Assembly: GCF_000010345.1 (NCBI RefSeq)
Contig: NC_009663.1
Span: forward strand, 2,046,001 to 2,110,000
Source of the DNA: Sulfurovum sp. NBC37-1
GTDB lineage: Bacteria > Campylobacterota > Campylobacteria > Campylobacterales > Sulfurovaceae
Length of the DNA: 64,000 nucleotides
Direction: 5' to 3'
The notes beneath the pieces are model-generated. The model was not told the DNA's origin and ran no database searches. It saw only the letters and a list, made by a program, of their open reading frames with translations. Positions 3,013 through 63,930 of the stretch are shown here, one piece after another (within the stretch, counting starts at the first letter, position 1; every line of letters starts with the position of its first letter). A program made the translations under genes and the position numbers.

Positions 3013-4673
3013 CCCAAATCCGTAAATAGAAAATAACCATAAAAGAAGAAGTATCGTAAAATAGGGGAAAAGAAAGACAAAAGCGACACTAAACACTTTC
3101 ACCCATTTGGTGAAGCTTTTGCCAAGGAGTAAAAGTATGCCACAAGGTGTGTTAAATTTTTCTGTAGAGGGAACTAAAGAGTCACTTACTTCCAATGCCG
3201 GAACCATATTATTCGGTGAATATCTAAAAGCAACTAAAATCGATCAATTCTGTAATGCCTATCTACCTTTACCTCAAAGTAATCGAGGTTATATGCCATT
3301 TGAACACATGCAACCATTACTTCTTATGCTTCATAGCGGAGGAAGGGTCCTGGATGACTTACGTATGATTCATAAAGATAAAGCCATCAAAGAGACGTTG
3401 AAGATTAAACATATACCTGTATCAGAGAGTGTAGGAAAATGGATCACACGTCACGGACTACATGGTATCTATGGTATTGAATCCATCAATCGTAAACTGT
3501 TGCGAAGACATTTAAAAACGATAGATGAGCCTTTAGTACTTGATATTGATGCTTCGGTAATATTTTCACAAAAAAGTACAGCAGTGACAACTTATAAAAT
3601 GCAAAGCGGATATATACCTATGATTGGTCATATCAATGGCGGATATGTGATTCACAGTGAATTTCGTTCAGGCAATATTGCGCCCGCAGATAATAATCTG
3701 ACGTTTCTAAAAAGATGTCGGGAACAATTACCCAAAGCAAAATCACTCTCTTTTTTTAGAGCAGATTCTGCTTCTTATCAGGCTGAACTTTTTAACCACT
3801 GCAATAATCATCATATCACCTATACCGTGGGCGCTAACTTAGATCATTCCGTCTACGCCAATATCAAAGAAATTAAAGAGTGGCAATCATTCCAAACCAA
3901 AGAAGGTACAGCACATCACCTTAAAGAAGAAGTAGCTGAGTTTATACATACCATGCAGCACACAGACCATGCCTTTAGACTGATTGTTGTCAAAAAGACA
4001 GTGACACCGGTACTTCCGGAGATCTGGGATATGTTGAGTATAGACGAAAAACTTGATCTTGCCAGAGAGCATTATTATGTCATCGCTACCAATGCAGATG
4101 AAAGCATGTCTGCTCAGGATGTTGTTAGGTTTTATCGCAAGCGTGGAGATACAAGCGAGAACCGGATCAAAGAACTTAAAAATGGTTTCAATCTCAATTA
4201 TCTTCCTTCATCAAATTTTATCTCCAATGCATTTTACTTTCAGATAGGTGTACTGGCTTATAATCTCTTCATTCTTTTTAAACAAATACTGCAAAATAGC
4301 TGGCAAAAACATACGGTTGCCACGATACGCTATAAGTTTTATCGTTTAGCAGGAAAGGTAGTGAAACACAGTAGGCAGACTATCTTGAAAGTTCAAAAAG
4401 AGTTTGTAGAAATATTTCACTCCATAAGAGAATGCATCTATAGGGTTTCACTGGAATGATACCCGTATAAAGTCACCAAAAACATCAATACGATAGAAAC
4501 TTCAAACACTAGAATAGTGCCTAAAAAAACAGCATTTTTAGCATAAACATGTCGGTGTGCTAAAAACAACAAGGTAATACGCAAATTTATGATGCATCTA
4601 ATCTTTTAGCATAATATCTCTCGTTGATTTTAGTTCAATTTATGATTACTTTGGGGCTATTTACGGATTTGGG
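3013..4673 (+). mobile_element. IS1380-type insertion sequence, apparently complete
   Basis: The element is 1661 bp with 17-bp terminal inverted repeats, CCCAAATCCGTAAATAG at the left and its reverse complement at the right (4657-4673). A 5-bp direct repeat, TTTAT (3008-3012 and 4674-4678), flanks it as a target-site duplication. It carries one intact transposase. The perfect duplication and perfect terminal repeats point to a fairly recent insertion. It landed 5 bp after the stop of the M23 peptidase gene and upstream of the lpxC promoter, and it reads against the flanking genes. About 214 bp after the transposase hold no gene. Confidence 0.9.
3137..4459 (+). CDS. IS1380-family DDE transposase
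   Basis: A 440-residue transposase. The start chosen is ATG 3137, preceded by AAGGAGT (3124-3130); an upstream in-frame start at 3107 lacks a good ribosome binding site. It shows the IS1380 pattern: VLDIDAS (D136/D138), GN at 179-180 before the second strand, FRADSASYQ (D210), and YRKRGDTSENRIKEL with E341 as the third catalytic residue. The frame has no internal stop. Within the element it is the only gene. Confidence 0.9.
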   Translation: MPQGVLNFSVEGTKESLTSNAGTILFGEYLKATKIDQFCNAYLPLPQSNRGYMPFEHMQPLLLMLHSGGRVLDDLRMIHKDKAIKETLKIKHIPVSESVGKWITRHGLHGIYGIESINRKLLRRHLKTIDEPLVLDIDASVIFSQKSTAVTTYKMQSGYIPMIGHINGGYVIHSEFRSGNIAPADNNLTFLKRCREQLPKAKSLSFFRADSASYQAELFNHCNNHHITYTVGANLDHSVYANIKEIKEWQSFQTKEGTAHHLKEEVAEFIHTMQHTDHAFRLIVVKKTVTPVLPEIWDMLSIDEKLDLAREHYYVIATNADESMSAQDVVRFYRKRGDTSENRIKELKNGFNLNYLPSSNFISNAFYFQIGVLAYNLFILFKQILQNSWQKHTVATIRYKFYRLAGKVVKHSRQTILKVQKEFVEIFHSIRECIYRVSLE

Positions 4674-4682
4674 TTTATGATC

Positions 4683-6092
4683 TTACTTTTTTCTCTTCTC
4701 TTTCACTGGCGGAGGGGAGATGATCTCGTCTGCCTGCTTAAATACCTTGTTGATGAACTTGTTGATCCATGACTGGTCAAACCACTCGACCGGTCTCACT
4801 TCGTTACCCTGAACCAGCATACCGAAATGCAAATGGTCACCCATCGCCAGTCCGGTCATACCCGTTTTGGCGATCGTCTGTCCTGCATGTACTTCATCTC
4901 CTTCATTGACCAGAAACTGAGAACAGTGCCCGTAAAGGGTGTAAAGTCCCAGACCATGATCTATCAGAAGCATATTGCCGTAAATACCGTTGTCATCCGT
5001 GAAGACCACTTTTCCCGAGTTTGATGCCTTGATATCGGCCATGCTGTTACTGGCAAGGTCATAGCCCACATGATAGGATTCGGACACGGTATTGTCCTTG
5101 CTTCCATAGTAGTAATATCTGTGATCACCGAAACTTGCCACTTTCTTCCCGTTTCTCAGCGGATAAAACTTCTTGATCTTCCAACTGTCGAGCATCTCGT
5201 TAGAAACAGGCTTGCTTAACTTATGGATCAGTACCTCGTTTTTCTGACGCATAGTTTCATTGATCGCTTTGAGTTTTTTAAGTTTGTCTGTAATCTCCGC
5301 ATACTCAGGATCACTGGAAGCCAGATCAGTGATCTTTCCATCAATGAATTTATCAGTCGCTTTGATATGGGATGTTTTGTACCTTGGATTGCCGTGATAG
5401 AAAGGAACATGCAGTTCGCGTCGGTTCCTGGCAAGGTCCGTCGCTACGATCTTGGCATCAAAGCTGTTGTCCGTGAACGGCCAGGCGACCAGTACGGCAT
5501 AATATCCCTCTTTTTTGTAGGGTTCCGGCTTGAACTTGTTCTTATTGGCAAGCACATAAAGCTCATCCATATTTTCATCATCCGCCTGGAAGACTATCAG
5601 TGCAGAACCGCCCTGGTTGATCATACGTGAATTGGAAAGGATATTGACATTGGGCCTTTTGTAGTCCACAGTCACATCAATACTCTTAGTCGCTTTGTTA
5701 CCTTCCATCATGTTCCACATGCTGCTGTCACCTACCGTAACGGTCAACTTGTAGTCTTTCGCTTTGGGATCGAGTACTTTCCCTTTGGGATACTTCACTT
5801 TAATGACTGCTTCTTTGGTCCCCTTGTCGAAGAAGCCCTGGTCGATGATCACACTCTTTGTGCCGTCAGAGAGTTTGACCTCATAGGAATTCAGGCCAAC
5901 ATTGTCCGTTACCTTGACCTTCAGAGGGTCCTTTCTGTTCCAGAAAATATGCTTTTGACTTTCGATCTTCGGTTTGACCCTTTCAAACTCCGGTGCGGTA
6001 TAGACATACCATGCACCTGCAGCCACTCCCGCCAGCAGGAGTACACTGAATATCTTGTTCGCGAGATTCCCGCTACGTTTCTTTTTTGCCAT
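4683..6092 (-). CDS. Membrane-anchored M23 metallopeptidase (LytM/endopeptidase type)
   Basis: This 469-residue protein has a short cytoplasmic Lys/Arg stretch, one membrane segment (about 13-29), a ~270-residue extracytoplasmic beta-rich region, a short helix, and a C-terminal M23 domain. The zinc motif HVGYD (H341, D345) and HLH (H420, H422) are intact, so it should be an active peptidoglycan endopeptidase in the periplasm. The start overlaps the end of the DHH gene by 20 bp. Campylobacterota use several M23 enzymes for cell shape; which one this equals cannot be told from sequence alone. The IS element begins 10 bp after its stop. Confidence 0.88.
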   Translation of the reverse strand: MAKKKRSGNLANKIFSVLLLAGVAAGAWYVYTAPEFERVKPKIESQKHIFWNRKDPLKVKVTDNVGLNSYEVKLSDGTKSVIIDQGFFDKGTKEAVIKVKYPKGKVLDPKAKDYKLTVTVGDSSMWNMMEGNKATKSIDVTVDYKRPNVNILSNSRMINQGGSALIVFQADDENMDELYVLANKNKFKPEPYKKEGYYAVLVAWPFTDNSFDAKIVATDLARNRRELHVPFYHGNPRYKTSHIKATDKFIDGKITDLASSDPEYAEITDKLKKLKAINETMRQKNEVLIHKLSKPVSNEMLDSWKIKKFYPLRNGKKVASFGDHRYYYYGSKDNTVSESYHVGYDLASNSMADIKASNSGKVVFTDDNGIYGNMLLIDHGLGLYTLYGHCSQFLVNEGDEVHAGQTIAKTGMTGLAMGDHLHFGMLVQGNEVRPVEWFDQSWINKFINKVFKQADEIISPPPVKEKRKK

Positions 6093-7071
6093 TTTTCAAT
6101 CCTGTGTCTTTTAATTTTATAGCGTTTTGAAGTTTTCCTATAATTGTATCGATTATTTCTTGTAAGTTACCTGCTTCAAATGTTACACCGGCCGCGACCT
6201 TGTGTCCTCCTCCACCGAAGTCCGCGGCGATGGCGTTGACATCGATCCCTTTGCTGCGCAACGAGACTCTGATGCTATTTTTCATCTCCATGACGAACAC
6301 CGCCACTTCCACTGTTGTCAGGGAACGCGCATAGTCTACGATCCCGTCCATGTCGGGTACCGTTGCGCCCGTTTCAGCAATATCTTCTTTGGTCACGTAG
6401 AGTACGGCGATACGGGCATCACTATAGAGTTTCAAACTCTTCAGTGCCCGCTGCAGAATACGAAATGACGCAAGGGAGCGTCTCTGTGTGAAGTGATAAG
6501 CAACTTTTGCAGGGTCGACTCCGATCTCAACCATCTCTTTGGCCACTTCAAAGACCTGGGCCGTTACCGAAGAGGTAGTGAAATAGCGTGTATCTGAAAG
6601 CAGGGCAGCATAAAAACATTCTGCACTATTTACAGAAATATCATAATGCTTTTTAAAGAGTTCAAACGCTACCTGCGAGGAAGAGGCATACTCTGGCAGT
6701 ACCACATTGAGCGTGCCGTACCGGTCATTGCTTCGATGATGGTCGATGTTGAGTATCTGACGTCCCTTCAGTTCAAAACCCAGCCGTTCTATGCTTCCGC
6801 AGTCGCAGGCGATGACCAGGCTGCTGTCATACTCCATCTTTGTTTTGATCCTCTCAAAACCTGAGAGAAAATCAAGATGACGCGGCAGATCTCTGGAGGC
6901 ATTTACAACCTCCACTCTTCGTTTTTTCAATTCTTTCAACAGATTGTATATACCCAGTGCCGTACCGATGGCATCCGGATCAGGATTAAGATGGGAAAGT
7001 ATTGTAACGAAATCTGCTTCTTCGATTAGCTTTTTGGCCTCATCATACGGAAAATCCTCTTTATCCCTCAC
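6073..7071 (-). CDS. DHH/DHHA1 phosphoesterase (NrnA-like)
   Basis: The 332-residue protein has the DHH-family metal motifs: SHLNPDPDAIG (about 25-35), ACDCGS (about 88-93) and NIDHHRSND (about 108-116). A C-terminal DHHA1 substrate domain ends in DFGGGGHKVAAG. Relatives (NrnA, MgpA) are cytoplasmic Mn2+-dependent enzymes that degrade nanoRNA or pApA/pAp. The order of domains and the length fit that group rather than RecJ. It lies 2 bp from nadC and overlaps the M23 gene, so one transcription unit is likely. Confidence 0.85.
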   Translation of the reverse strand: MRDKEDFPYDEAKKLIEEADFVTILSHLNPDPDAIGTALGIYNLLKELKKRRVEVVNASRDLPRHLDFLSGFERIKTKMEYDSSLVIACDCGSIERLGFELKGRQILNIDHHRSNDRYGTLNVVLPEYASSSQVAFELFKKHYDISVNSAECFYAALLSDTRYFTTSSVTAQVFEVAKEMVEIGVDPAKVAYHFTQRRSLASFRILQRALKSLKLYSDARIAVLYVTKEDIAETGATVPDMDGIVDYARSLTTVEVAVFVMEMKNSIRVSLRSKGIDVNAIAADFGGGGHKVAAGVTFEAGNLQEIIDTIIGKLQNAIKLKDTGLKNGKKET

Positions 7072-7073
7072 AA

Positions 7074-7898
7074 CTATTCAACTTTCATGGAAAGGTCTAT
7101 CCATTTCGCCTGATGGATAATGGACCCCGAAGAAATCGCATCTACTCCCGTTGCAGCTATTTCGGCAATGGTTTCAAGCGTCACATTGCCGCTGGCTTCA
7201 AGCAAAATATGCGGATAATTCGCATTCCTGTAAGTCACCACTTCTCTGGTCTCCTCCAGGGACATATTGTCACACATTACGATATCCGCACCCGCCTGCA
7301 TTGCTTTTGTGACCATCTCCAGACTTTCACACTCGATCTCCACTTTGGAAGTGAAAGGTATCTTCTGCCGTACTTCCTGCATGAAGGCATCCAGGTCGTC
7401 GATGGTCTTGAGATGGGTATCCTTGAGCATCAGACAGTCATCCAATCCCATACGGTGGTTGAGTCCTCCGCCGCATCGCACGGCATATTTCTCGAATTCA
7501 CGCAGCAGAGGCCGGGTCTTTCTGGTGTCGAGCAGTTTGGCATCCGTACCCTCTATCGCTTTGGCATACTGTGCTGTCAATGTGGCGATGGAAGAAGCAT
7601 GCAGGATCATATCGAGAATAGAACGCTCCAGAGAGAGAATGGTCTTGGAGTCTCCGCTGACCAGAAGCAATTTGTGTCCTTTTTTAAAAGATTCCCCATC
7701 CTGTATGTCCCAGCTGAGTGCCAGGTCGTACATATCGGCCAATACTTCGACATACTCTCGCCCGCCAAACACCCCGTCACTTTTGGCAATGATATAGGCG
7801 CGGATACCCCTGCTCTCACTGATACGCGAAAAAAGGTCTCCCCGTCCGATATCTTCAGAAACCAAGGCTTCTATAAATCTTTTTTTTAACATGTACAT
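7074..7898 (-). CDS. nadC: Nicotinate-nucleotide pyrophosphorylase (quinolinate phosphoribosyltransferase)
   Basis: The 274-residue protein converts quinolinate and PRPP to nicotinate mononucleotide in de novo NAD synthesis. Seen are the N-terminal EDIGRGDLFSR segment, the LLDTRKTRPLLREFEKYAVRCGG-type active-site region around residue 125-145, HRMGLDD, and the C-terminal EASGNVTLETI and DAISSGSI phosphate-binding loops. The start is probably ATG 7898, with a second in-frame Met two codons later. The gene follows nadA by 63 bp; nadB is not in the window. Confidence 0.96.
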   Translation of the reverse strand: MYMLKKRFIEALVSEDIGRGDLFSRISESRGIRAYIIAKSDGVFGGREYVEVLADMYDLALSWDIQDGESFKKGHKLLLVSGDSKTILSLERSILDMILHASSIATLTAQYAKAIEGTDAKLLDTRKTRPLLREFEKYAVRCGGGLNHRMGLDDCLMLKDTHLKTIDDLDAFMQEVRQKIPFTSKVEIECESLEMVTKAMQAGADIVMCDNMSLEETREVVTYRNANYPHILLEASGNVTLETIAEIAATGVDAISSGSIIHQAKWIDLSMKVE

Positions 7899-57340: not shown

Positions 57341-58237
57341 CTAAAACTTATAAACCGTTTCAGGTATAATGCACAATGTACCCGCACTACCACCAACTTT
57401 TACTTTCTGACTCTTCATTTCATCATAATTGGAATAATAATTGTAAATAGATTGCGAAGGCATTTTAGAAAAAGCACTTCTAAGATTTTTACAAAAAGAT
57501 GCTTCTCCTGTATTGCAGTCAACTTTCGGGTCAAACTTTACAAATTTCAATCCTTTTAATCTATCACGATTTACCCAAAGAGAGCCATCTTTTTTCATAG
57601 CGTACATAGAACAACAATTTAAAATAACCCTGTCCCAACCTTTTTGTTTTCCTACTCTCTTCAAATCAGGCAAAGGGCTTTTGTGAGCATAATTCAGATC
57701 CTCAGGAAGGATCCATAGGCTTCCATCTTTTTTCAGCCCAATATCATGATCACAACATCCATTACCTGCCCATTTTACTCCAAAATCAACCCAATCATGA
57801 CTATAGCTTAAAAGCAGAGGTTTTTTTCTCAGCCCTTCTCCCCAACCCCACAGTGTTCCATCTTTTTTAATGGCATACACACGATAACCACCATTGATGA
57901 TCTTCGCTCCGGCAAAACCATCCCCTATCTTTTTAGGTTCCAAGTGATAAATATACTTAGTTGTATATGTAGGCTTACCTGTATCTGGATCTAGAGGAGG
58001 GAGCATCTGACCCCAGTTGCAACCCCCTACTTCACCAAGTTGCCACAGCGTACCATCTTTTTTGATGGCTCCATCACCTGCACAAGTTTTCCATGAGGCC
58101 ATCCAGTCTTTGGCTTTACTTAGTTCTTGTTTGCATTTGTGTTCTTGATTTTGACTATTATCTGGATCAATAACTTCATTATGGCTACATCCTGCAAAAA
58201 GTAAAAATATACCAAATAGTATTACTGCTTTAATCAT
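57341..58237 (-). CDS. Lipoprotein with RCC1-like KKDGTLW repeats, 298 aa
   Basis: ATG 58,237 starts a signal with lipobox LFAGC, so it should be a lipoprotein. Four units carry A(I/L)KKDG(T/S)LW followed by W-G or similar (DGTLWQLGEVGG, DGTLWGWGEG, DGSLWILPED, DGSLWVNRDR), the signature of RCC1-like beta-propeller blades. A CC pair (GNGCCDHD) and CCSMY occur between units. It is paralogous to the C-terminal part of 61,736-63,010. Relatives often mediate protein interaction, but no partner is known here. Confidence 0.8.
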   Translation of the reverse strand: MIKAVILFGIFLLFAGCSHNEVIDPDNSQNQEHKCKQELSKAKDWMASWKTCAGDGAIKKDGTLWQLGEVGGCNWGQMLPPLDPDTGKPTYTTKYIYHLEPKKIGDGFAGAKIINGGYRVYAIKKDGTLWGWGEGLRKKPLLLSYSHDWVDFGVKWAGNGCCDHDIGLKKDGSLWILPEDLNYAHKSPLPDLKRVGKQKGWDRVILNCCSMYAMKKDGSLWVNRDRLKGLKFVKFDPKVDCNTGEASFCKNLRSAFSKMPSQSIYNYYSNYDEMKSQKVKVGGSAGTLCIIPETVYKF

Positions 58238-58368
58238 AATATTCTTTTCCTTTCTTGTCTGTATACCCCATACGTCCATCAAACAGCTCAAACCTGGAGA
58301 GTGTTTTGTCAAATGATCCTAAGCTTTTGTATTTAAAGTGATAAAAACATAAAACATTAGTTGTATAA

Positions 58369-59791: not shown

Positions 59792-60427
59792 CTAGATACA
59801 CTCTTTTTTTAAAGATCGTGATTTGAGCTTTTTTCGTGAAACAATTTCACCTTTTTTATTGACAAGGGCTTTTTCAGTCACTTCTTTTTTCTCCACACAT
59901 TGGGTAGTGCCTGGGCATCCTTTGCACTCCTTGTCTGTCGTCTCATACGTATAGGTAATCTCATACCCTTTTGCTGTTTTATAGTAATGGTTACCGTTTG
60001 TATATCCGTGGATCCATAGGATCAAGCGTGCCTCTGCAGGAGTATCTATCTCACCAAGCTGCGTAATAACATCTTTAACCTCATCCATTCTCCACACTTT
60101 ATTGTTTTTATCAATCAGAAAACCATTAATAAGTCTACCGGGATGACTCCCCCCAATATTGCTTTCTTTTGTACGCATCGGCTTTGCCATACTAAATTTT
60201 TTATAAAGCGCAGGATCAATGTCCGATATAGGTTCTGAACACCATGTCACATGTCTTATCCAGCGGTGGTATGTATTTTTCTTATTTGGACTGTTTTCAT
60301 ATGATCGTATTTCCAGACATTTGACATTTTCACTTGGGTGTATATCATTTGCACTTACATTGGGTTGCTTTGCCTCAATCTGTACAACCGCTGCCATCAT
60401 AAACATAGCCATTACTGTTTTTTTCAT
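59792..60427 (-). CDS. Exported protein of the LW/AE family, 211 aa
   Basis: A signal peptide (about 1-19) is followed by NVKCLEIRSYEN, RLINGFLIDKNNKVWRMDEVKDVITQLGEIDTPAEARLILWIHG and a Cys-rich tail (KECKGCPGTTQCVEKKE). The WR(M/L)(D/E)xVxDV...DTPAE...LW signature ties it to the tandem pair at 55,940-57,330 and to 61,031-61,720. MITE-A copy 2 lies between this gene and its likely promoter. Confidence 0.78.
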   Translation of the reverse strand: MKKTVMAMFMMAAVVQIEAKQPNVSANDIHPSENVKCLEIRSYENSPNKKNTYHRWIRHVTWCSEPISDIDPALYKKFSMAKPMRTKESNIGGSHPGRLINGFLIDKNNKVWRMDEVKDVITQLGEIDTPAEARLILWIHGYTNGNHYYKTAKGYEITYTYETTDKECKGCPGTTQCVEKKEVTEKALVNKKGEIVSRKKLKSRSLKKECI

Positions 60428-60453
60428 ACTTTTCTCCTCATAGGTTTATTTCA

Positions 60454-60716
60454 GGGCACCTCTAATAACCCTAGATGTTCATAACATCTCTGGCTTTTAT
60501 CTGGGCTAGACACTCTTTTGAAGGCCTAGCCGTAGCTAAGTCGAAAAGTAACAACGCATAGGCGAAAGCTAGTGATGCCCGCAGGGTGGGCTTTGCAAAC
60601 ACAATCTTTCACAAGATACTTACTTCATCTTAGCTTTGGCTAGGACTTGAAAGCCTCATGCAAAATCTCACATTTGCAAAACCCATTATGGGTATTTGGG
60701 GTTATTAGAGGTACCC
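60454..60716. mobile_element. MITE-A, copy 2 (263 bp)
   Basis: It starts GGGCACCTCTAATAACCCTA and ends with the reverse complement of GGGTACCTCTAATAACC. A 4-bp target duplication, TTCA, flanks it (60,450-60,453 and 60,717-60,720). It is the reverse complement, with differences, of copy 1 at 17,125. It lies between a promoter-like element (60,722-60,755) and the ATG at 60,427. Confidence 0.85.
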
Positions 60717-60721
60717 TTCAT

Positions 60722-60755
60722 ATAATACCATTAAGATGTGACAAAAATGTGACAA
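60722..60755 (-). promoter_or_regulatory. Promoter/operator-like element, copy 2 of the shared element
   Basis: On the minus strand TGTCACATTTTTGTCACAT (two TGTCACAT copies 11 bp apart) precedes an extended -10, TGGTATTAT, with the same spacing as at 54,801-54,834. The target duplication of MITE-A copy 2 lies next to its end. Without the MITE and one TTCA, the -10 would be 27 bases before ATG 60,427, against 28 in the VWA copy. Confidence 0.6.
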
Positions 60756-60765
60756 ATTTAAAAAC

Positions 60766-61019
60766 TTACTTTTTGGGATTTGCTATATTCCCCATAAATA
60801 GAACTTGTTCTGTCTCTTCATCTTTGACAACAACGATAAACGGTCTGTTTACATTCATCACTTTTATTTTAGGAGATCAAGGTACGCCTACCAAGATTAC
60901 GTACTACACGATCATACTTCCCCTTACTAGGCAAAATGACGACCATTGAAGTGCCATTGTTCTTAATAGGGTAGCACTATCGCTTGATAATCAAACCCCT
61001 CTACATATTTGAAATGCAT
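60766..61019 (-). pseudogene. Serpin pseudogene (frameshifted, internally deleted)
   Basis: Three pieces of a serpin are readable on the minus strand. First, MHFKYVEGFDYQAIVLPY ends at about 60,966. Then, after a one-base frameshift near 60,965, KNNGTSMVVILPSKGKYDRV. Last, after a stop at 60,877-60,879, MNVNRPFIVVVKDEE and QVLFMGNIANPKK with stop 60,766-60,768. These match the conserved 's4B-s5B' and C-terminal parts of serpins, which are serine/cysteine protease inhibitors. The reactive-centre loop region between parts two and three is deleted, so the product cannot be functional. It lies downstream of the gene at 61,031 on the same strand. Confidence 0.82.
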
Positions 61020-61030
61020 ACTTTAATGCA

Positions 61031-61720
61031 TCATATCATTATCTCAACACAGCCTTTAACATGTACCTCTCTAAGTGTTTTTTCTTTCATCACTTTTCCC
61101 TTCTCATCGTAATAGCGAAAATATTCATGAAAATAACATTCACCCATATCTGAATCAAGAAAACGTACTCTGTAGTTCCTGCCCACTTTTTTATAACTGT
61201 AACTTCTTCGTCCAGGATGGTCCGATGCCATAATCCACAGAAGTATTTCCGCTTCTGTATCTATGTTACCAAGAAACTGTTGTACGTCATCAAGTGTTTC
61301 TATGGCTTTGAGTTTTCCGTCTTTGGCATCTATGAAACGAAGTGTGTAAAAAGTGTAGTCATTCAGCAGTGGCTGAGGGTACTTCCAGAAATATGCTGGT
61401 TTCATAATGGCCTTTGCAAGGTACTGCTGTGAACGATTATTGAGCTTTTTTGTTGCTTTGCCAATGTGCAAAATTTCTCTAAAAACCGCTTTACCTCCAG
61501 GAAGCTCAAAATGTTTACCGTCAGAAGGCTTGGTATTGAAAGAGACCACATCAAAATAGCTTACCTGCCATCCTAAATGAAAATCACTCCATCCGTATGA
61601 GTTTATTTTTTTAAACTTTTTTTCACCTTTGGAAAGTCTTGGGACAGGTTTGTGTATCAGTGTCACGGTCTGGGCATTCAGAAACAATACCATTGAGATC
61701 AGTATAATCAAAAACTTCAT
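61031..61720 (-). CDS. Exported protein of the LW/AE family (distant), 229 aa
   Basis: A signal peptide (about 1-16, MKFLIILISMVLFLNAQ) is followed by KFKKINSYGWSDFHLGWQVSYFD, FYTLRFIDAKDGKLKAIETLDDVQQFLGNIDTEAEILLWIMAS, and KKVGRNYRVRFLDSDMGECYF. The LDDV...IDTEAE...LLW signature and the basic Y-x-V-R strand link it to three other genes of the island. The ending contains two Cys. Next upstream is the DUF1566-RCC1 fusion (15 bp). Confidence 0.75.
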   Translation of the reverse strand: MKFLIILISMVLFLNAQTVTLIHKPVPRLSKGEKKFKKINSYGWSDFHLGWQVSYFDVVSFNTKPSDGKHFELPGGKAVFREILHIGKATKKLNNRSQQYLAKAIMKPAYFWKYPQPLLNDYTFYTLRFIDAKDGKLKAIETLDDVQQFLGNIDTEAEILLWIMASDHPGRRSYSYKKVGRNYRVRFLDSDMGECYFHEYFRYYDEKGKVMKEKTLREVHVKGCVEIMI

Positions 61721-61735
61721 TCGCTCCTCCTCTTT

Positions 61736-63010
61736 TTAGTTTTCTTTTATTATAGGCAACAAACAAAGTGTGCCATCTTTGTTGGCTTTTAGATTTTTGT
61801 TAAAATAATTAGAGCTGTAGATTGTTCCCAATGACATTTTGTTCATTTTTGATTTGAGAACCGGATATTTATCTAGTTCTACATATGATTCTTTTTTAGC
61901 TTTACTGTATCTCTTAAAAATAATTTTAGGACCATTCCAAGTATCTGCTCTCCATAGTGAACCATCTTTTCTCATTCCATAGATTCTACAGCAATCCAAT
62001 ATAATCTTCTTCCAGTCACTAAATTGGCTGATTTTTTTTAATTTCAGTGCAGTCTTATATTTACCAAGAGCAAAAGCAGAATCGGGAAAACGCCAAAGCG
62101 TACCATCTTTTTTTAATCCGACATCATAAGCACAACAGCCATTTCCCTCATATTTGACAGCAAAATCAGACCAATTATGGGAAGCATCCAGCTTTATAGG
62201 CTTCACTCCCAAACCTTCACCCCATCCCCAAAGTGTTCCATCTTTTTTGATAGCATAGAGACGATATCCACCATTGATAATTTTAGCTCCTCTAAAACCA
62301 CTCCCTATTTTTTTAGGTTTTAGTGTATAGATATGTTTCTCTTTGTATATTGCCTTACCTGTTTGAGGGTCAAAAGGCGTAATCCCTCCCCAACCACACT
62401 CTCCAACTTTTCCAAACTGCCAAAGCGTTCCATCTTTTTTGAGTGCCGTATAGCCCGAACAGGTATGCCATGCCTTTACCCAGTCTGCACTATAAGTCAT
62501 CTCCTGTCTGGCATTGTCTTTACATACTGTTCTTTTTTGTTTAGGCGAAAGTGCTGTAACCTTTCTAGTGCAAAGCACATACCCTTTGTACTTTTTGTCT
62601 GCCCAACCACTCTTTGCCTTTTTAAAGTTTACAAAGGCACCCAGCTTTCCACGATCTTCTCTCGTCCACATCCATACATCATCATATTTACCGCCCACCT
62701 CAGGCATGGAAGAGGCAAATTCAGATTTAACAAACAACCCTTTAGCAGTAGGTTTTTTTGTCATAATAGCTTGAAGCTCTTTTTGACTGGCAACTCTCCA
62801 ATTACTATAACCATTGATATTCAACTTCTTGCAATAGTCCTGAGCTTTGTTCCAGCGCCATACACGCAGCCCCTCCCAATCCGTATCAAAGATATGTTTA
62901 TCTTTTTTCGTAAATGGCTGATTTTGATACATTGTATTACCAATAACCACTGTATCCTCTGCACTTAAAAACTGTAAAAACAGTGCCATTACTATCAAAA
63001 ACTTGTTCAT
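61736..63010 (-). CDS. DUF1566 (Lcl) domain fused to RCC1-like repeats, 424 aa
   Basis: ATG 63,010 starts a signal peptide (MNKFLIVMALFLQFLSAED) and overlaps the TGA of the neighbour by 4 bp. Residues about 22-150 are a DUF1566/Lcl domain: WNKAQDYCKKLNINGYSNWRVASQKELQAIM with its characteristic W, C and NWR. Residues about 165-420 hold KKDGTLW units (DGTLWQFGKVGE, DGTLWGWGEGLG, DGTLWRFPD, DGSLWRADT) like those of 57,341-58,237, including the GNGCC and CC pairs. The two parts are separate genes elsewhere in bacteria, so the fusion is notable. Confidence 0.82.
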   Translation of the reverse strand: MNKFLIVMALFLQFLSAEDTVVIGNTMYQNQPFTKKDKHIFDTDWEGLRVWRWNKAQDYCKKLNINGYSNWRVASQKELQAIMTKKPTAKGLFVKSEFASSMPEVGGKYDDVWMWTREDRGKLGAFVNFKKAKSGWADKKYKGYVLCTRKVTALSPKQKRTVCKDNARQEMTYSADWVKAWHTCSGYTALKKDGTLWQFGKVGECGWGGITPFDPQTGKAIYKEKHIYTLKPKKIGSGFRGAKIINGGYRLYAIKKDGTLWGWGEGLGVKPIKLDASHNWSDFAVKYEGNGCCAYDVGLKKDGTLWRFPDSAFALGKYKTALKLKKISQFSDWKKIILDCCRIYGMRKDGSLWRADTWNGPKIIFKRYSKAKKESYVELDKYPVLKSKMNKMSLGTIYSSNYFNKNLKANKDGTLCLLPIIKEN

Positions 63011-63930
63011 TTTGCCCACCACCATTCAGTAAAAACTTCCGGAAATTTATCACAAAAATGAGTGAGCGTATCGTAATCCATTCGCTCTTTACTGCCATCG
63101 GTACCGTAAAAATACCCTTTCTCGTCCACTTTCCCTTGGTGATAGAACACCACATACTTAACCTTCCCATCAGGATAATACTCTTTGGCATACCCATCTT
63201 TTAAACCATTACGATAGCTTACAGCATACTGTAAATGACCCGCATTGTCATATCTCTTTTCAATACCGTTTAATTTACAGTTTCTATAGGGAGATTTACG
63301 CTGGAGGATACCCGTATCACAATACCAACTCTTCTCAGGTCCCACACGACATCCATTTAGTTTCATCTCGAGAGAGAGCTTTCCGTTACTACAGTATGAT
63401 TTTAGATCCTTGACAGTCCCATTAACATAGGTAACCCTACTTTCCAATACACCAGATATATATCCAAAACGCTGCTCTACACCATTTTTTTGATTATTTT
63501 TATAGGGTGTACTGTGTACCATCTGCCCTTTTTGGTTGTACTCTCTGACCTCTACTTTCTTACCATGGCGATAGAGTATCGTTTCATAGAGCCAGCCACC
63601 CTCTGGACTGTATTTTTTCGACAAGCCTTCAAGCAGACCATTTTTGTAGCTAGTCTCAGAGACTATCTTTTTTGTTTTTTTGTCGTAGCGTATCTCAGTA
63701 CCATCCTTCTCGCCATTTTTTTCAGAAGTAATGATATACACTTGGCTATTTTCCTTGCGAATAATACTATGATCACCCTCTTTCTGGGTTTTACCGTTGC
63801 CCCAAGATTCTGAAAAAGAGGGAGGATTTGACTCGATCGTTGGCGCTTTCAGGAGAAGCGGAGGTTGAGCATACCGTGTTGCACATCCACCTATCCATAT
63901 CAGAAACATGGTTACTATTAAAATTTTCAT
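63007..63930 (-). CDS. MORN-repeat lipoprotein (YwqK-like), 307 aa
   Basis: The signal ends in the lipobox WIGGC, so this is a predicted lipoprotein. It has about eight MORN_2-type units such as YKNGLLEGLSKKYSPEGG, YRHGKKVEVREYNQKGQ, YKNNQKNGVEQRFG, YRNCKLNGIEKRYDNAGH and YRNGLKDGYAKEYYPDGK. This pattern is known from YwqK-type proteins, often linked to toxin systems and to membrane contact; a role cannot be assigned. It is translationally coupled to the DUF1566-RCC1 gene. Confidence 0.82.
   Translation of the reverse strand: MKILIVTMFLIWIGGCATRYAQPPLLLKAPTIESNPPSFSESWGNGKTQKEGDHSIIRKENSQVYIITSEKNGEKDGTEIRYDKKTKKIVSETSYKNGLLEGLSKKYSPEGGWLYETILYRHGKKVEVREYNQKGQMVHSTPYKNNQKNGVEQRFGYISGVLESRVTYVNGTVKDLKSYCSNGKLSLEMKLNGCRVGPEKSWYCDTGILQRKSPYRNCKLNGIEKRYDNAGHLQYAVSYRNGLKDGYAKEYYPDGKVKYVVFYHQGKVDEKGYFYGTDGSKERMDYDTLTHFCDKFPEVFTEWWWAK

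Follow-up and report, generated by a model that had tools for sequence, protein, structure and literature searches.

The stretch of DNA analysed here, hereafter the window, comprises 64,000 nucleotides of the genome of Sulfurovum sp. NBC37-1 (positions 2,046,001-2,110,000 of a single contig of 2,562,277 bases). Close to its upper end lies the remnant of a serpin gene, consisting of three collinear serpin pieces that together span 61037-60766 on the minus strand. The presence of such a remnant had been recognised in the initial annotation, but the upper bound of 61019 given there was too short, the remnant beginning 18 bases above it. The features of the locus are as follows, with the genomes used for comparison given by number and stop codons by asterisks.

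60453..60720, no strand: MITE-like repeat of 268 bp adjoining the 3' side of the remnant, with 18-base terminal inverted repeats GGGCACCTCTAATAACCC and TTCA on both sides
60766..60888, minus strand: serpin remnant, piece 3, GVP*SPKIKVMNVNRPFIVVVKDEETEQVLFMGNIANPKK followed by a stop (PF00079, E-value 8.8e-7; 49% identity to the G388 serpin, E-value 1.8e-5)
60885..60893, no strand: joint of the internal deletion, with about 95-101 residues lost, the hinge and the reactive-centre loop among them
60893..60970, minus strand: serpin remnant, piece 2, PIKNNGTSMVVILPSKGKYDRVVRNL, in a shifted frame (tblastn against G307, 50% identity; alignment)
60966..61037, minus strand: serpin remnant, piece 1, DMMH*SMHFKYVEGFDYQAIVLPY, ending at the frameshift near 60966-60970 (tblastn, alignment)
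61031..61720, minus strand: gene for a 229-residue protein that belongs to an unnamed family and probably has a signal peptide, occupying the place expected for the 5' part of the serpin
61736..63025, minus strand: Lcl_C / RCC1-like-repeat protein, the N-terminal 152 residues of which are 64% identical to the product of the gene directly before the G032 serpin
63007..63930, minus strand: MORN-repeat gene of lipoprotein-like type, sharing 51-53% identity with its G032 orthologue, with the order kept

Around the remnant, minus-strand genes follow one another over a long AT-rich stretch (window 40660-63930, continuing to genome position ~2,113,200) and code mostly for exported proteins, many of them without Pfam names. 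Internal duplications are found in this island, the blocks at 42-43 kb and 48-49 kb being 72-76% identical, and one unnamed family has several members in it (at 55.9, 56.6, 59.8 and 61.0 kb and beyond the window). The proteins encoded at 57341-58312 and 61736-63025 have a common part of ~265 residues that is 50% identical and gives a weak RCC1-like match. No relative of the neighbouring gene at 59792-60427 was found in a scan of the genome contigs. Elsewhere in the window, a transposase-like frame of 450 residues (3107-4459) appears to resemble the IS1380 family.

The assignment of the remnant to the serpins was examined using several sequence search methods. Its last 30 residues alone match the Pfam Serpin family (PF00079, profile positions 343-370) with an E-value of 8.8e-7, above the curated cut-off, and joining the pieces, each stop being written as X, lowers the E-value to 1.7e-12; the proposed family thus holds when the frames are joined. 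When all six frames of the 2.56-Mb genome were searched blind, the remnant was the only serpin match (E-value 3.1e-6). With intact Campylobacterota serpins as tblastn queries, its pieces were the top matches in the window (50%, 57% and 41% identity to the G307 serpin), and all three parts of the C-terminal half that had been described earlier were recovered on the minus strand in serpin order. The pieces are collinear with the G307 and G388 serpins in tblastn and in the alignment, and the G032 serpin also matches collinearly in tblastn. Piece 3 carries the C-terminal serpin signature, with the original stop after NPKK, while piece 2 gave no Pfam serpin match on its own and its assignment therefore rests on tblastn and position. 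The serpin profile does not match at random, since just seven of the 397 genomes of the phylum, the window genome included, were matched in the profile search and the six others have near-full-length serpins. On sequence grounds, a chance resemblance to a serpin is excluded. An Rfam search of 60000-62000 gave no match.

Measured against the G307 serpin (447 residues), the remnant lacks about 264 N-terminal residues and, between pieces 2 and 3, about 101 more (313-414 in G307 numbering), a gap that a weakly matching GVP*SPKIK before piece 3 may narrow by a few residues. The hinge motif EEGTEAAAAT, at G307 position 387, falls in the deleted stretch together with the loop that follows it, and the internal deletion of the reactive-centre loop reported in the initial annotation is thus confirmed, with ~95-101 residues missing. 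The stop reported at 60877-60879 is a TGA in the frame of piece 3 and the frameshift placed near 60,965 could be located at ~60966-60970; to these is added an in-frame TAA at 61025-61023, inside piece 1, which had been overlooked. A working inhibitory serpin requires a single open frame of about 350-400 residues with a complete fold, and an EEGTEAAAAT-like hinge motif with a reactive-centre loop; here no such frame is present and both hinge and loop are deleted. The remnant shares the C-terminal signature NRPFIVVVKDEETEQVLFMGNIANP with the serpin superfamily (PF00079), which includes chloropin and the prokaryotic groups of PMC8233489, and is collinear with it along a part of the central fold. 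Unlike these proteins, however, it lacks the N-terminal two thirds, the hinge and the reactive-centre loop, which makes inhibition impossible, and it is most likely without function.

A serpin is found at the same genomic place in G032, a 72%-complete draft genome of the same genus. It lies on contig C35 (7798-8556), with a frame that is unbroken for 253 residues to the contig end (Pfam 1.6e-60). The gene order on C35 is response regulator, sensor kinase, 4110-4751, 4757-5467, MORN-repeat gene (5492-6409), Lcl_C gene (6397-7776) and serpin, and it is common to the window genome from genome position ~2,118,600 down to window position 61736, with identities of 68% for the response regulator, 60% for the kinase, 63% over 110 residues for the 4110 gene and 52% for the 4757 gene. 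In G032, 21 bases separate the stop of the Lcl_C gene from the serpin start, with no 229-residue gene in between. Because the contig ends within the G032 serpin, its overlap with the remnant is limited to 16 residues (the first 16 of piece 1 against residues 238-253), of which 12 are identical in the alignment, and no full-length orthologue is visible. The expectation of an intact serpin at this place in a relative is borne out as far as that contig reaches. The remnant and the G032 serpin thus have the same 5'-side neighbour and gene order, but differ in that the latter has an open frame and no intervening gene. Their common place suggests that the serpin gene would predate the split of the two species.

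The gene for the 229-residue protein stands between the Lcl_C gene and the remnant, with its stop codon overlapping the latter, and its product gave no Pfam match. Its closest relatives, in G024 (43-45%) and in G001 and G031 (39-41%), adjoin homologues of the window genes at 40.6-55.9 kb. From these positions, the likeliest account is that the gene arrived by a rearrangement and that the 5' part of the serpin was lost with its arrival, presumably in one event. As the Lcl_C neighbour has a different C-terminal part in the window genome and in G032, the rearrangement may have extended beyond a single insertion. The two orthologues, which have the same Lcl_C N-terminal part, look like the outcome of a domain swap.

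The locus thus very probably represents a dead serpin gene, derived from an ancestral exported inhibitor and broken by a rearrangement, a second deletion and point lesions. The lesions are present in the sequence as described above, and the following order of events is proposed. Like the gene that G032 still has at this place, the ancestor would have coded for a serpin that was exported and probably anchored to lipid; judging from homologues with intact hinge motifs, this serpin would have trapped a protease by the suicide mechanism. Through a rearrangement, the 229-residue gene would have come to lie between the Lcl_C gene and the serpin, which would have lost about two thirds of its length from the 5' side; the hinge and the reactive-centre loop would have gone in a second deletion, and point lesions would account for the two stops and the frameshift. 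As the serpin frame at this place is still unbroken in a same-genus relative, up to the end of the contig there, this is an ordinary bacterial pseudogene, the loss of a gene of a known family.

Alternatively, a full gene may never have existed here, only a 3' piece having arrived with a mobile element or by recombination. The MITE-like repeat lies ~45 bases downstream of the remnant, with 4-base repeats flanking it, and the island is AT-richer than the first 40 kb of the window (39% against 46% GC), as such an arrival might predict. However, the G032 serpin occupies the same place beside the same neighbour, the G032 draft has no match to the repeat, and the TTCA duplication flanking the repeat falls outside the remnant; with this duplication of its own, the repeat seems to have inserted separately, and the arrival of a 3' piece is very unlikely. 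The repeat has ~15 near-full copies in the window genome (82-93%), with apparent 4-base AT-rich target duplications (TAAA, TCTA, TTAA and AAAT at other copies), and 25 of the 70 genomes examined, nearly all of the genus, contain matches to it. Its ends also occur by themselves, as head-to-head palindromes of ~50 bp, and a literature search turned up no paper in which it is named.

The 31-codon frame that remains open at 60861-60766, with a GTG start, could be thought to encode a short peptide with a new function, but it corresponds to a serpin C-terminus without the loop, has no comparable stand-alone counterpart in the family genomes searched and gives no sign of expression, which makes this reading extremely improbable. 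It is hardly conceivable that the serpin gene is alive and the breaks are errors of sequencing or assembly: single-base errors could produce one frameshift, but errors cannot explain the whole set of two stops, one frameshift, a deletion of ~100 residues and ~264 missing N-terminal residues, and the 5' part of the serpin was found nowhere else in the genome in a six-frame search.

The dead serpin gene belongs to a family with a sporadic distribution in the phylum, as the initial annotation had held and the above count of matching genomes illustrates. Serpin matches were found in five of the 175 genomes of the family, the window genome included, and when the G032 protein was searched against 78 genomes of the genus, clear matches came from G032 and G522 only. 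The surroundings of the G522 and G486 serpins are unrelated. Proteins of ~710-750 residues that combine a long N-terminal part with a serpin domain at the C-terminus were observed in another family of the order (loci L002, L008, L009 and L010 in G077, G117, G442 and G398, respectively). In a tree of 90 serpins, the bootstrap of which had not settled, the Campylobacterota proteins fall in several places: G307 groups with another Campylobacterales genome (99/89) and G522 with G486 and one further bacterium (100/99), G388 lies within a mostly Chloroflexota clade, the group of family f18 stands apart and G032 has no firm place. The remnant is too short for placement, and the tree speaks of the intact Campylobacterota serpins. 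The rarity of serpins in the phylum and their presence in several clades fit repeated gain and loss within bacteria, which is plausible. The window copy, too, may plausibly have come by horizontal transfer. Serpins are known to be sparsely distributed in bacteria, and the authors of that study argue against transfer between kingdoms (PMC8233489); the sparse distribution in Campylobacterota agrees with their account.

Inhibitory serpins present a loop which is cleaved and inserted into the main sheet, trapping the protease (PMC10090351); chloropin of Chlorobium limicola is described in the same paper as a bacterial serpin. Lipobox-like LSGC signals occur in the G032 and G307 serpins and hinge motifs such as EEGTEAAAAT in the complete relatives, pointing to an exported, anchored inhibitor as the likely ancestral state. 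The lost function may have been the guarding of exported proteins, as suggested by the lipoprotein-like signals on the relatives and the exported-protein neighbourhood. A more speculative and improbable extension is that the serpins of this island form part of a recurrent, fast-changing exported set in Sulfurovum, with the inhibitor gained and lost along with some matching protease threat and the dead copy marking a changed enemy or exported protease. No paper was found in a literature search for serpin together with Sulfurovum. The analysis thus puts on record a sulfur-oxidising member of the Campylobacterota that has lost a rare, probably exported protease inhibitor, for which a relative keeps an unbroken frame in the corresponding position, and the serpins of the phylum prove to be scattered and to fall into several clades; views on serpin biology are left unchanged.
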